DNA of 64,000 nucleotides from Deltaproteobacteria bacterium (GTDB lineage: Bacteria; Myxococcota_A; UBA9042; DTJE01), in contig JAKPOP010000012.1 of NCBI GenBank assembly GCA_029547805.1, positions 62,001 to 126,000 of the forward strand. The letters are read 5' to 3'. Shown here piece by piece: positions 13,860-17,771 of the stretch. Position 1 is the stretch's first letter. Each line of letters opens with the position of its first letter. The notes under the pieces were generated by a model, which was not told where the DNA came from, searched no databases, and saw only the letters and a list, made by a program, of their open reading frames with translations. Both the position numbers and the translations under genes were made by a program.

Positions 13860-14786
13860 TCACCGGCGGAAGGCCCGGAGCCCGATGACCCCGTAGCGCT
13901 CGGCATAGCCGGAATAGACGCCTGGGCACTCGGCCCGTCGGGCGCAGGTGTCACAGATGGGCAGATGGACCCGCGGTCCCGCGTCGGTCGGGTAGAGGTC
14001 GTCCTCGAACCCCTCGGAGATCCAGAGAATTCCATGGGCCCGGAGCCCCGAGACCGCGTGGGTCGCCGAGGGGATCTGGCAGAGGGGAAAGCCCTCGACC
14101 ACCACCTGGATCCCCGAGTCCTGCAGGTCTCTCTCGGCCCGGGCCACGGCCTGCTGGGCCACCTGCCCCGCGGCCTCCGGCGGGGGTAGCAGCGTCCAGT
14201 CGATGCCCGGCAGGGGCCCCCGGGGCTCCGCCAGGCAGATCTTGTGCGAGAGCGGGCCCAGGGGCACCAGCAGGTCGGTGATGGCGGTCACCTGATCCAG
14301 GTTGGGTCGGGTCAGGACCGTGTTCACATGGCGCTCGATGCCGCTGTCCCTGAGGCCCTGGAGGGCCGCCATCACGTCCCGGAAGGAACCCGGGTCGGCC
14401 ACCAGGCGGTCATGCACCTCGGGGGTGGCGCCGTGGAGGCTTGTGTGGACGTAGGCCAGGCCCAGGTCCAGCAGTCTCCGACGAATCTCCGGGTCGGCCA
14501 GGCGCCGAGCGTTCGTGATCAGGCCCCAGGAGAGACCCAGGGCCTCGACGGCCCGGGCCAGCCGAGGAAGGTCCCGGCGCAACAGTGGCTCCCCGCCACT
14601 GAAGACCACCATCGTGGCGCCCCGGTTCCGGGCCTCCAGGGCCTTGCGGAGGACCTCCTCGGGCGGGACGTCCGGGACCTCCCCCCGGTAGGCATCGGCC
14701 CGACAGAACAGGCAGCGCTGGTTGCAGCGATAGGTGATCTTCAGGATGGCCCGGACGGCTCGATTCGCTGGCGTCGCCCGCGGCAT
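13860..14786 (-). CDS. radical SAM protein, second enzyme of the Hxs-like locus
   Basis: 308 residues. The [4Fe-4S]/SAM motif is Cys21, Cys25 and Cys28 (CNQRCLFC), followed by FSGGEPLLR. The C-terminus carries an auxiliary cysteine cluster (CDTCARRAECPGVYSGYAERYG) like that of SPASM/twitch enzymes. It starts 15 bases after the stop of hxsB and is the last gene of the operon. In described His-Xaa-Ser systems the partner of HxsB is HxsC, but this protein does not show the HxsC pattern I know (CxxxCxxCSQPP), so it may be a different partner. Substrate unknown; a peptide or protein modified together with HxsB is the likely target. Confidence 0.88.
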   Translation of the reverse strand: MPRATPANRAVRAILKITYRCNQRCLFCRADAYRGEVPDVPPEEVLRKALEARNRGATMVVFSGGEPLLRRDLPRLARAVEALGLSWGLITNARRLADPEIRRRLLDLGLAYVHTSLHGATPEVHDRLVADPGSFRDVMAALQGLRDSGIERHVNTVLTRPNLDQVTAITDLLVPLGPLSHKICLAEPRGPLPGIDWTLLPPPEAAGQVAQQAVARAERDLQDSGIQVVVEGFPLCQIPSATHAVSGLRAHGILWISEGFEDDLYPTDAGPRVHLPICDTCARRAECPGVYSGYAERYGVIGLRAFRR

Positions 14787-14801
14787 CCCGTCGCCCCTCG
14801 G

Positions 14802-16310
14802 TCAGGGAGCATCGTTGGGCCGGTTGAACAGGTACTCGGACCGCTCCTTCACGGTGACCCACCGCTGGAACATCTGCTCGACCTCCGGGTCCCCGGACAT
14901 CAGTTCCCGGAACAGTCGGTCCTGGACCCCCATGTAGATCGCGCATCGGGGGTTCGTGGAGTTCTGGGGGAAGATGTTGCCCTGCTCGGTGTAGTTGTAC
15001 ACCGGGCATGTTCCGCAGTAGGGCTTGTAGGCGCAGGTGGCGCATCCCGGCAGCGCGTCCAGGCACGAGGCCACCGCCAGGGACTTCACCGTGTCGGAGT
15101 TCACCACGTCCCGGAGGGTCATCGAGTCCACCGACCCGATCCGGAAGACCTCGTCGCCCATCTGGTACACCATGCGCCCCTCGTCGCAGGTGAAGATCGA
15201 CCCGTCGTAGTTGTAGGCGATCTGGCCGATCCCGGCCCCGCAGGGGTTCCGGATGTCCAGATAGTTCGGGTCGTCGGGGGTCAGGATCTTGGTCAGGAAC
15301 AGCGCCGCCAGCCGCTCCATGATCTCGACGCCCTGGCGGTTCAGGGCCATCACGTGGTCCAGCGCCTCGTTGTAGAAATCCAGGAACTCCTGGGCGGTGT
15401 AGCCCAGGCGGTCCCCGGTCTTCCGGGCGTAGCCGAAGGGGTTCAGGGGCCTCAGGAACAGCGCCCGGCACCCCTGGCGCACGTATTCGTCCACCAGGTC
15501 CCTGGCCCGTCCCAGGTGCTCCCGGGTGATGGTCGCCAGGGCCTCCACCCGGTAGAGGCTCGGGTCCAGCCCCGCATCGGCGTAGGCCTGGTTGATGCGC
15601 TGCATCCAGTGGACCGTGCGCTCCCAGGCGCTGGACCCCGCCAGCCGCCGGTTCTTGTCGTGGAGGTCCTTCGGGCCGTCCAGCGAGGTCGAGACCTGGA
15701 TCCGGTGGTCCACCAGCCAGCGAAGTTTCTCCTCGTCCAGCAGCGAGAGATTGCTGACCAGGCTGAACATCACCCGCTTGTTCCGTTGCCGGGCCTGCTC
15801 GCGGCCGTACTCCACCACGTGGCGCACCACCTCGAAGTTGGCCAGGGGCTCGCCTCCCTGGAACTCGAAGGTCAGGCTGTCCGAGGGGCTCTTCATGGCC
15901 ATGTCCACGCAGCGCTCGGCCGTGGCGATGGACATGTCCACCTCGGTCTCGTTCATGTTCTGGCGGCTCGCATGGCAGTAGGAACAGACCTCGTTGCACC
16001 GGAGGGTGACCACCAGGATGTGGAGCACGGTCCCCTGGTAGGCGAAGTCGTGGCGCCGATCCCACTGACGCGCCAGGTCATCGAGGTTCTGGTCGTCCAC
16101 CAGGAAGCCCCGATCCCGGAGGCGGTCGAAGAGGGGGGTGCCGGGCCGGACTCGCCCGTGGACCAGGGCGTCCAGTTCCCCGTCGTCCAGGAACACGAAG
16201 GCCCCGTGGTCATTGGTGACCACGAACCGCTCGCCCACCCGCCGCCATCGGGCCAGGTTCGGCCGGGGCTTCGGGGCCTTTCCAGGCCTGGGATCCGTCG
16301 TTCGGGTCAT
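14802..16310 (-). CDS. hxsB: HxsB-like radical SAM/SPASM peptide maturase
   Basis: 502 residues. An N-terminal PqqD/RRE-like segment (WRRVGERFVVTNDHGAFVFLD) is followed by the radical SAM core with Cys105, Cys109 and Cys112 in LRCNEVCSYCHASR and FEFQGGEPL. The C-terminal SPASM region holds many cysteines, including CATCAYKPYCGTCPVYNY. The lead into the cluster (GTVLHILVVTLRCN) and the SR after it are characteristic of HxsB of the His-Xaa-Ser system. Such enzymes make radical-based crosslinks or other changes in a small precursor. The start codon overlaps the stop of the preceding small HxsD-like gene by 4 bases (ATGA), indicating translational coupling. Confidence 0.85.
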   Translation of the reverse strand: MTRTTDPRPGKAPKPRPNLARWRRVGERFVVTNDHGAFVFLDDGELDALVHGRVRPGTPLFDRLRDRGFLVDDQNLDDLARQWDRRHDFAYQGTVLHILVVTLRCNEVCSYCHASRQNMNETEVDMSIATAERCVDMAMKSPSDSLTFEFQGGEPLANFEVVRHVVEYGREQARQRNKRVMFSLVSNLSLLDEEKLRWLVDHRIQVSTSLDGPKDLHDKNRRLAGSSAWERTVHWMQRINQAYADAGLDPSLYRVEALATITREHLGRARDLVDEYVRQGCRALFLRPLNPFGYARKTGDRLGYTAQEFLDFYNEALDHVMALNRQGVEIMERLAALFLTKILTPDDPNYLDIRNPCGAGIGQIAYNYDGSIFTCDEGRMVYQMGDEVFRIGSVDSMTLRDVVNSDTVKSLAVASCLDALPGCATCAYKPYCGTCPVYNYTEQGNIFPQNSTNPRCAIYMGVQDRLFRELMSGDPEVEQMFQRWVTVKERSEYLFNRPNDAP

Positions 16311-16522
16311 GACTCGCCTCGCTGCTCGATGGTGCGACCCAGCGCCCAGTTCATCATCTCGCCGCCGATCTCGTCCGCCTCGGCGGGGTCCGGCACCGGG
16401 ACCTCCAGCACGTAGTGGTCCCCGTCGGTGGACAGCGTCGCATCGGCCACGCCCCGGAAGGCCTCGATGGTCTCCAACAGGGCCTTGCGGGAGTAGATGC
16501 GCTTGTGGAATCTCAGCGTCAT
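16307..16522 (-). CDS. minimal HxsD-like protein
   Basis: 71 residues; ATG at 16522 with an AGGAGAGG ribosome-binding site. The pattern is FHKRIYSRKALLETIEAF, then a short beta hairpin (YVLEVPV), then GGEMMNWALGRTI. It aligns by eye with the core of the larger HxsD-like neighbour (HKNLYPKEVLF, then a hairpin, then GEFANELVNQALR), so I read it as a stripped-down paralogue. It lies between that gene and hxsB and overlaps hxsB by 4 bases. It could be a chaperone, recognition element or substrate of the radical SAM enzymes; none of these is demonstrated. Confidence 0.7.
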   Translation of the reverse strand: MTLRFHKRIYSRKALLETIEAFRGVADATLSTDGDHYVLEVPVPDPAEADEIGGEMMNWALGRTIEQRGES

Positions 16523-16544
16523 GGGCGTCCTCTCCTGCCGGAGC

Positions 16545-17099
16545 CTACCGGTCCTCCGACCTTCCGGATTCGGGGGCGGGGGCCGTCGGGGCCTTCCCGT
16601 CCTTGCCGTACTTCTCCTCCCAGGGCACCGCGATGCCCAGTGGGTCGTCCAGGAAGTCCAGGTTCTCGTCCTCTTCGGCCAGCAACCTGGCCACCTCTGG
16701 CGGGAGGTCCGGGACGCCGGGGGCCGGGGCCTGCTCCGGGGCTTCCAGGTCACCGGCCCCGGCCAGGGCGATGGCCCGGGTGATGATCTGGGACCGGACC
16801 TTCTCGGTCTGCCGGGAGAAATGGAGTCGAAGGGCCTGATTCACCAGTTCGTTCGCGAACTCCCCGGCGAGGTCCTGGGCCGTCCAGGGGGAGTTGGGCC
16901 GGGGCCGCAGCCGGACCTCGATGCGGTCCGGGTCAGCGACGTCCAGGAGCACATAGCATCGGTCCAGGAAGGTGAAGGCCGTGCCGAAGAGGACCTCCTT
17001 CGGGTAGAGGTTCTTGTGGACCAGCAGGGATCCCTCGGGACCCCGCTGCACCCCCTGGTCCTTTCCGTTGTCCTTTCCCGCACCCTTGGCCGTTGCCAT
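16545..17099 (-). CDS. hxsD: HxsD-like protein with acidic C-terminal tail
   Basis: 184 residues; ATG at 17099 with a GGGAGG site. Residues about 25-100 match the HxsD pattern: LYPKEVLFGTAFTFLDRCYV, a beta hairpin, GEFANELVNQALRLHFS and VRSQIITRAIAL. HxsD has no known enzymatic activity and always accompanies HxsB in His-Xaa-Ser loci. Here it has a Lys/Gly-rich head and an acidic tail with DENLDFLDDPLGIAVPWEEK that is longer than typical. First gene of a four-gene operon driven by the promoter at 17182-17210. No HxsA-type repeat protein is nearby, so the tail is one candidate for the modified segment (speculation). Confidence 0.75.
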   Translation of the reverse strand: MATAKGAGKDNGKDQGVQRGPEGSLLVHKNLYPKEVLFGTAFTFLDRCYVLLDVADPDRIEVRLRPRPNSPWTAQDLAGEFANELVNQALRLHFSRQTEKVRSQIITRAIALAGAGDLEAPEQAPAPGVPDLPPEVARLLAEEDENLDFLDDPLGIAVPWEEKYGKDGKAPTAPAPESGRSEDR

Positions 17100-17181
17100 C
17101 TGGTCGCCTCCCGCTGTGGACGGAAATCGTGAACGAGTCTTTCCCGGCAGGCTCCACGCCGCCGTTTCCTGGGACGGGGGA

Positions 17182-17210
17182 ATGCTATCGGGCGGATCGC
17201 GGACCGTCAA
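17182..17210 (-). promoter_or_regulatory. promoter of the hxsD-hxsB radical SAM operon
   Basis: On the minus strand TTGACG (17210-17205), a 17-base spacer and TAGCAT (17187-17182) give a strong sigma-70-type promoter. The predicted start near 17175 leaves a leader of about 75 bases before the ATG at 17099. This separates the operon from the upstream lipoprotein gene. Confidence 0.65.
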
Positions 17211-17677: not shown

Positions 17678-17697
17678 GAAGGCACCTTCCGTGCGAG

Positions 17698-17771
17698 TCG
17701 GGGCGACTGGATTTGAACCAGCGACTCCATGGTCCCGAACCATGTGCGCTACCAGGCTGCGCTACGCCCCG
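17698..17771 (-). tRNA. tRNA-Pro (anticodon CGG)
   Basis: 74 bases form a complete cloverleaf: acceptor CGGGGCG/CGCCCCG, D-arm GCGC-loop-GCGC, anticodon stem CATGG/CCATG with loop TTCGGGA (anticodon CGG), T-arm GCTGG/CCAGT with loop TTCAAAT, discriminator A. CCA is not encoded. Its 5' end is only 4 bases from the rpe stop codon on the same strand, so it may be processed from the rpe transcript. Confidence 0.95.

Follow-up and report, generated by a model that had tools for sequence, protein, structure and literature searches.

The 64,000-nucleotide stretch of DNA analyzed here (the window) is part of contig JAKPOP010000012.1 of a Deltaproteobacteria bacterium and carries a four-gene operon related to the His-Xaa-Ser (Hxs) peptide-modification systems. 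The operon encodes two HxsD-like proteins, an HxsB-type radical S-adenosylmethionine (SAM) enzyme and a second radical SAM enzyme:

16545–17099, minus strand: hxsD, 184 residues (TIGR03976), with a C-terminal extension that canonical HxsD does not have
16602–16649, minus strand: conserved HxsD tail motif DDPLGIAVPWEEKYGK, inside hxsD
16307–16522, minus strand: hxsD-like gene (product HxsD_rel), 71 residues (NF038315)
14802–16310, minus strand: hxsB, radical SAM/SPASM maturase, 502 residues (TIGR03978)
13860–14786, minus strand: second radical SAM enzyme, orthogroup r0, 308 residues, HxsC-like
17182–17210, minus strand: sigma-70-like promoter match TTGACG-17-TAGCAT upstream of hxsD, a match to the consensus only

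The positions, strand and tight packing of the four genes agree with a preliminary description of this DNA, and the 4-base overlap reported there is the ATGA at 16307–16310, between the 71-residue gene and hxsB. The promoter-like site is present as well and matches 9 of 12 consensus positions (one found versus 0.2 expected from shuffles). When searched with NCBIfam hidden Markov models (HMMs), HxsB scored 543.9 bits against TIGR03978, far above the cut-off of 370, and is single-copy in the genome, the next best place reaching only 49.8 bits. HxsD_rel scored 61.6 bits against NF038315, which NCBIfam calls 'HxsD-like' (cut-off 41). HxsD barely exceeded the TIGR03976 cut-off of 50 with 50.1 and 51.8 bits, a marginal score, yet one that spans the whole model. 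The pairing of HxsB with two HxsD-like proteins, noted earlier for the window, is kept in nearly all of 60 loci. The earlier reading of the operon as a variant system is upheld: it belongs to a variant His-Xaa-Ser system, and the enzyme adjacent to HxsB is not a canonical HxsC (see below).

The second radical SAM enzyme fell below every curated NCBIfam cut-off. It scored 76.9 bits against the HxsC model TIGR03977 (cut-off 267.9), which rules it out as a canonical HxsC, and 86 bits against the HxsC4 model NF038332 (cut-off 500); the best TIGR03977 score elsewhere in the genome was 98.6 bits. Its orthogroup, r0, comprises 24 loci, whose aligned members are 32–89% identical to the window protein, and forms a clade apart from canonical HxsC and the HxsC4 group (support 96/92). 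The r0 enzyme retains the CxxxCxxC radical SAM site, the PLC cysteine and a C-terminal CxxCxxxxxC, and canonical HxsC has the same cysteine arrangement (NHQLC ... CDPCERKHEC). The earlier statement that this enzyme lacks an HxsC motif is therefore correct by HMM but not for the HxsC-type auxiliary cysteines (PLC ... CxxCxxxxxC). Outside the host's order, r0 enzymes occur in long frames; the one at L174:6567–8891 has a C-terminal methyltransferase domain, which suggests methylation as one modification.

The window contains no tandem HxS open reading frame (ORF), as had been observed, and the HxsA model TIGR03979 detected nothing significant in the host genome (best 12.3 bits, E = 0.26). This weak signal coincides with a DNA pattern of three successive HxS units at about 47.5 kb on another contig, C10, and marks the following gene:

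G000:C10:47333–47590 (L107:9733–9987 plus the stop): HxsA4-type precursor, 85 residues, with a His-Gly-Ser (HGS) array

The precursor begins with MATRLPVFKKRLQDFLSSEEGKITRGQ and ends in AEQHCS(HGS)6W, its full sequence being MATRLPVFKKRLQDFLSSEEGKITRGQAAAVGSFLLMAGASGHALASGAHGEGGPAADLAAEQHCS(HGS)6W; a TTGACA-18-GATAAT promoter match and a sequence resembling a ribosome-binding site lie upstream. Against the HxsA4 model NF038313, the host protein with its seven units scored 47.8 bits (cut-off 55), and close relatives and family members with longer arrays scored about 84.9–183 bits. The leader is conserved as LPxFKKxxxDFLSSEEGKITRGQ. The search of genome context for a conserved small ORF, proposed in the preliminary description, found the HGS gene directly after hxsB in many relatives (for example L059, L063, L064, L073, L081 and L093). 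Both ends of its contig lie over 75 kb away from the window operon, which puts the precursor at least that far from it. The different substrate that had been inferred from the lack of an HxS gene nearby gives way to this HxsA4-type HCS(HGS)6W gene on another contig. Of the two observations that were named together in advance as refuting the earlier reading, an HxsA-type gene elsewhere in the genome was found, on C10; a canonical HxsC assignment for the second enzyme was not (76.9 versus 267.9 bits).

The leaders differ among families. Some contain stretches resembling twin-arginine translocation signals (TRRNFLSKTG in L087, TRRDF in L098), those of the host family have a hydrophobic stretch ending in ALA, and other leaders (L059) have no counterpart of either; these sequences hint that the product may be exported in the families with such leaders. 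Throughout the host family, HxsA4 is located between a conserved 195-residue ORF and ccmE-ccmF of cytochrome c maturation (L107:9016–13285, L116–L128), with ccmE in 12 and the 195-residue ORF in 13 of the extracted family stretches. The adjacency could reflect synteny alone or point to a function; involvement of ccmEF was set aside, as the gene order is stable at the family level but was not seen to recur elsewhere.

Four further radical SAM frames form a run on a third contig of the host genome, C11:

G000:C11:12429–13592: r5, HxsC4-like radical SAM frame
G000:C11:13579–14559: r8, radical SAM frame
G000:C11:14475–15950: r1, radical SAM frame
G000:C11:15755–16885: r2, radical SAM frame

The r5 protein matched HxsC4 NF038332 over positions 13–335 of 335 with 334 bits (cut-off 500), and its orthologs beside HxsA4 in other families scored 605–620 bits. 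It falls into one clade with these orthologs (support 100/100), and the enzymes encoded right next to HxsA4 in L059, L070 and L076 are orthologous to it. The order r5-r8-r1-r2 is kept in nine other genomes of the host family and in the sole sampled genome of the order's next family; in two further genomes the run is interrupted by contig ends, and 12 of the 13 genomes of the family have a detected r5. Genomes of other families have r1 and r2 directly upstream of hxsD (L051, L053–L055) or beside the HGS gene (L058), which ties them to the system independently of the host genome.

Presence and absence were counted across 379 Myxococcota genomes, with an HGS array defined as four successive HGS units. 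Arrays were found in 129 genomes and HxsD_rel in 125; both occur together in 121, HxsD_rel alone in 4, arrays alone in 8 and neither in 246 (Fisher 2e-83, ignoring shared ancestry). In other words, arrays are present in 121/125 genomes with HxsD_rel versus 8/254 without it. A reversed-pattern control gave zero in nearly all genomes and was noisy in a few (G025, G210, G291), including one of the four that have HxsD_rel alone. Within families of mixed state, arrays also track HxsD_rel (16/16 versus 1/19 in family f18; 5/5 versus 0/13 in f22). The r0 enzyme is confined to genomes with HxsD_rel (52/125 versus 0/254). The r2 enzyme co-occurs with HxsD_rel in 116 genomes, with 9 and 6 discordant and 248 lacking both; five of the six r2 genomes in which HxsD_rel was not detected carry an array. 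Compared directly with the arrays, r2 gave 117 genomes with both, 12 and 5 discordant and 245 with neither. Orthogroup profiles were used for these enzymes, since a profile seeded with the second enzyme had lost its specificity and spread to radical SAM proteins at large.

These results make it quite probable that the operon supplies the HxsD/HxsD_rel/HxsB module and one HxsC-like enzyme of an HxsA4-type system spread over three loci, with the C10 precursor as substrate and the C11 enzymes in the same pathway. Several points weigh against this. The three loci are unlinked in the host genome, and the case for joint action draws on co-occurrence and on the linkage seen in relatives. The host HxsA4 (47.8/55 bits) and the host HxsC4-like protein (334/500 bits) are under their NCBIfam cut-offs, four HxsD_rel genomes have no detected array and eight array genomes no detected HxsD_rel. 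Of the HxsC-like enzymes, the phylum-wide profiling covered r0 and r2, and the Fisher values take no account of shared ancestry.

The separate contig of the C11 run and the moderate similarity of its enzymes to HxsC would also fit a division in which HxsD, HxsD_rel, HxsB and r0 alone act on HxsA4 and the run constitutes an accompanying pathway, particularly as r8-type enzymes have other uses, being paired with a different HxsB subgroup at loci whose searched stretch has no HGS array (L175, L179, L182, L186). Such a division appears unlikely. The r2 enzyme tracks HGS arrays over the 379 genomes as given above, r1 and r2 adjoin hxsD or HxsA4 in other families, and the HxsC4-like r5 is orthologous to the very enzyme encoded directly beside HxsA4.

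The host array is the shortest in its family, with 7 units versus about 10–30 in most members, as might be seen if a His-Xaa-Ser system were decaying in this genome. Decay is very improbable, however: every open frame is intact, the sister genome has an HxsB that is 95% identical, and two genomes of one genus (L126 and L127) have identical leaders but different numbers of HGS units, indicating that array length changes fast or has collapsed in assembly.

The profiles of HxsD and HxsD_rel are homologous (hhalign probability 98.9), and both proteins are predicted to fold as beta-alpha-beta-beta-alpha, with a predicted local distance difference test score (pLDDT) of about 97 for HxsD and 95 for HxsD_rel. 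This predicted topology differs from the PqqD-like winged-helix fold of the RiPP (ribosomally synthesized and post-translationally modified peptide) recognition element (RRE); no PqqD/RRE structure was among the 50 Foldseek matches listed for the two models. The listed matches are ferredoxin-like designs, Pcc1 and RNA polymerase RPB11-type proteins; none is below E = 0.01, and they were used for topology only. Pcc1 and RPB11 act as dimers, and these weak fold matches suggest by analogy that HxsD and HxsD_rel may form a heterodimer. The HxsD tail, DDPLGIAx[PS]WEEKYGK, is present as a strict pattern in 45 of 55 HxsD proteins of this type; in alignment A2, D152, P153, L154, I156, A157 and W160 are nearly invariant and E161 is invariant. 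Two canonical HxsD proteins (94 and 110 residues) end where the extension starts and have no tail.

For the two HxsD-like proteins, a role as recognition subunits is more likely than one as substrate. The preliminary description had suggested that the HxsD-like protein itself was perhaps modified; HxsD_rel, which folds compactly and shows neither repeats nor an invariant column nor a segment like a core peptide, was rejected as substrate, given also that a conserved precursor exists. HxsD itself might conceivably be modified, given its conserved C-terminal tail. The tail, DDPLGIAVPWEEKYGK, contains Trp, Lys and Tyr and is of a type cross-linked by some radical SAM enzymes, as in streptide-type Lys-Trp links. 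A system that has no precursor and modifies only its HxsD-like protein is nonetheless scarcely credible, despite this tail and the lack of an HxS gene in the window, since a conserved precursor co-occurs with the system, HxsD_rel is short and compact, and some array-bearing systems (L183, L210, L214, L218) either lack the tail or have a changed one.

The gene identities, the precursor, the genome-level co-occurrence of precursor, HxsD_rel, r0 and r2, and the order of the C11 run are direct observations. Beyond these, for the three-locus HxsA4-type system, we infer that all six radical SAM enzymes would act on one peptide in the following order. The two HxsD-fold proteins, probably paired in a heterodimer, would bind the HxsA4 leader and present the HGS-repeat core first to HxsB and afterwards to the HxsC-like enzymes. 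Each enzyme would form a 5'-deoxyadenosyl radical that takes hydrogen from His-Gly-Ser units, and its auxiliary Fe-S cluster would support C-H modification or cross-linking, repeated along the array. More tentatively, the six enzymes from three unlinked loci could form an assembly line, recruited by the HxsD-fold adaptor pair, that successively builds a polymeric His-based product on the HGS peptide, for example a metal- or electron-carrying cofactor, in about a third of the sampled Myxococcota species; we regard this as possible though less than even in probability.

Related HxsB proteins were found at 80 named loci, mostly in Myxococcota, with a few in Elusimicrobia and one in Candidatus Azambacteria; neighborhood genes were grouped by thresholded components, Louvain clustering having split HxsB. 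HxsB, HGS arrays and a gene of the HxsD type are all present in the Elusimicrobia and in the 0.7-Mb Candidatus Azambacteria genome (L208, L211, L217), a distribution that suggests lateral transfer. In a separate HxsB subgroup (L175, L179, L182, L186, L190 and others), HxsB occurs together with a radical SAM enzyme of the r8 type and a recurring set of genes; no HxsD, HxsD_rel or HGS array was detected in the extracted stretches, and this is apparently another system. A conserved family with no Pfam match recurs beside radical SAM genes in these neighborhoods (L156:7748–8956 and 8 other loci, cluster 6). Upstream of the window operon, a tRNA-Pro (CGG) gene at 17697–17771 on the minus strand overlaps the start of the ORF called at 17743; this ORF probably begins further downstream.

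NCBIfam already has names for HxsA4, HxsC4 and HxsD-like, and the kind of system is therefore known. The sources searched gave no mention of the split layout, of the co-inherited r0, r1, r2 and r8, of the tail on HxsD or of the fold shared by HxsD and HxsD_rel; nor did they yield any paper that uses the term HxsA4 or describes Hxs chemistry, with subscription journals outside the search. Hxs systems have been recognized from sequence for years, and the present case provides a defined precursor and a list of co-inherited enzymes, several with no Hxs name. Linked versions occur in culturable relatives (Nannocystis exedens, Plesiocystis pacifica and Polyangium). If the enzymes do act jointly, they would form an unusually large radical SAM set for a single ribosomal peptide. 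The case also illustrates that a precursor absent from the neighborhood does not imply a different substrate, as it may merely be unlinked, and that a DNA pattern for HxS repeats caught a gene that the HxsA HMM nearly missed.

PqqD/PqqE-type and other RRE-dependent radical SAM RiPP pathways share with the present system a small partner protein, a radical SAM/SPASM enzyme and a leader-bearing peptide. They differ in that HxsD and HxsD_rel are predicted to be beta-alpha-beta-beta-alpha proteins; with no RRE-type fold predicted in the pair, leader recognition would use a different fold. Among solved structures, the CteB/SCIFF maturase (PDB 5wgg) gave the best sequence match to HxsB (E = 1.7e-23). 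CteB forms thioether links at Cys, whereas the HGS core has one Cys (in HCS), and CteB-type chemistry thus cannot account for modification of the repeats.

The canonical hxsA/A2-hxsD-hxsB-hxsC systems (Paraburkholderia pSYMBR3459, Nostoc p057_G) have homologous HxsB and HxsD, the HxsB proteins being 35–38% identical to that of the window, and a precursor that ends in His-Xaa-Ser units. They feature a single HxsD of about 95–110 residues with no tail, one HxsC and a linked HxsA/HxsA2-type precursor, whereas the host has no HxsC over the TIGR03977 cut-off beside HxsB and no TIGR03979-type HxsA. The system also resembles the HxsA4/HxsC4/HxsD-like set (NF038313, NF038332, NF038315), with HxsD_rel over its cut-off, an HxsA4-type precursor, an HxsC4-like enzyme matched over its full length and shared gene neighborhoods in relatives. 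NCBIfam names only single proteins of this set; in the host family, neither the precursor nor the HxsC4-like enzyme is linked to hxsB or reaches its cut-off, and at least three more radical SAM orthogroups with no Hxs name (r0, r1 and r2, with r8) accompany the system.

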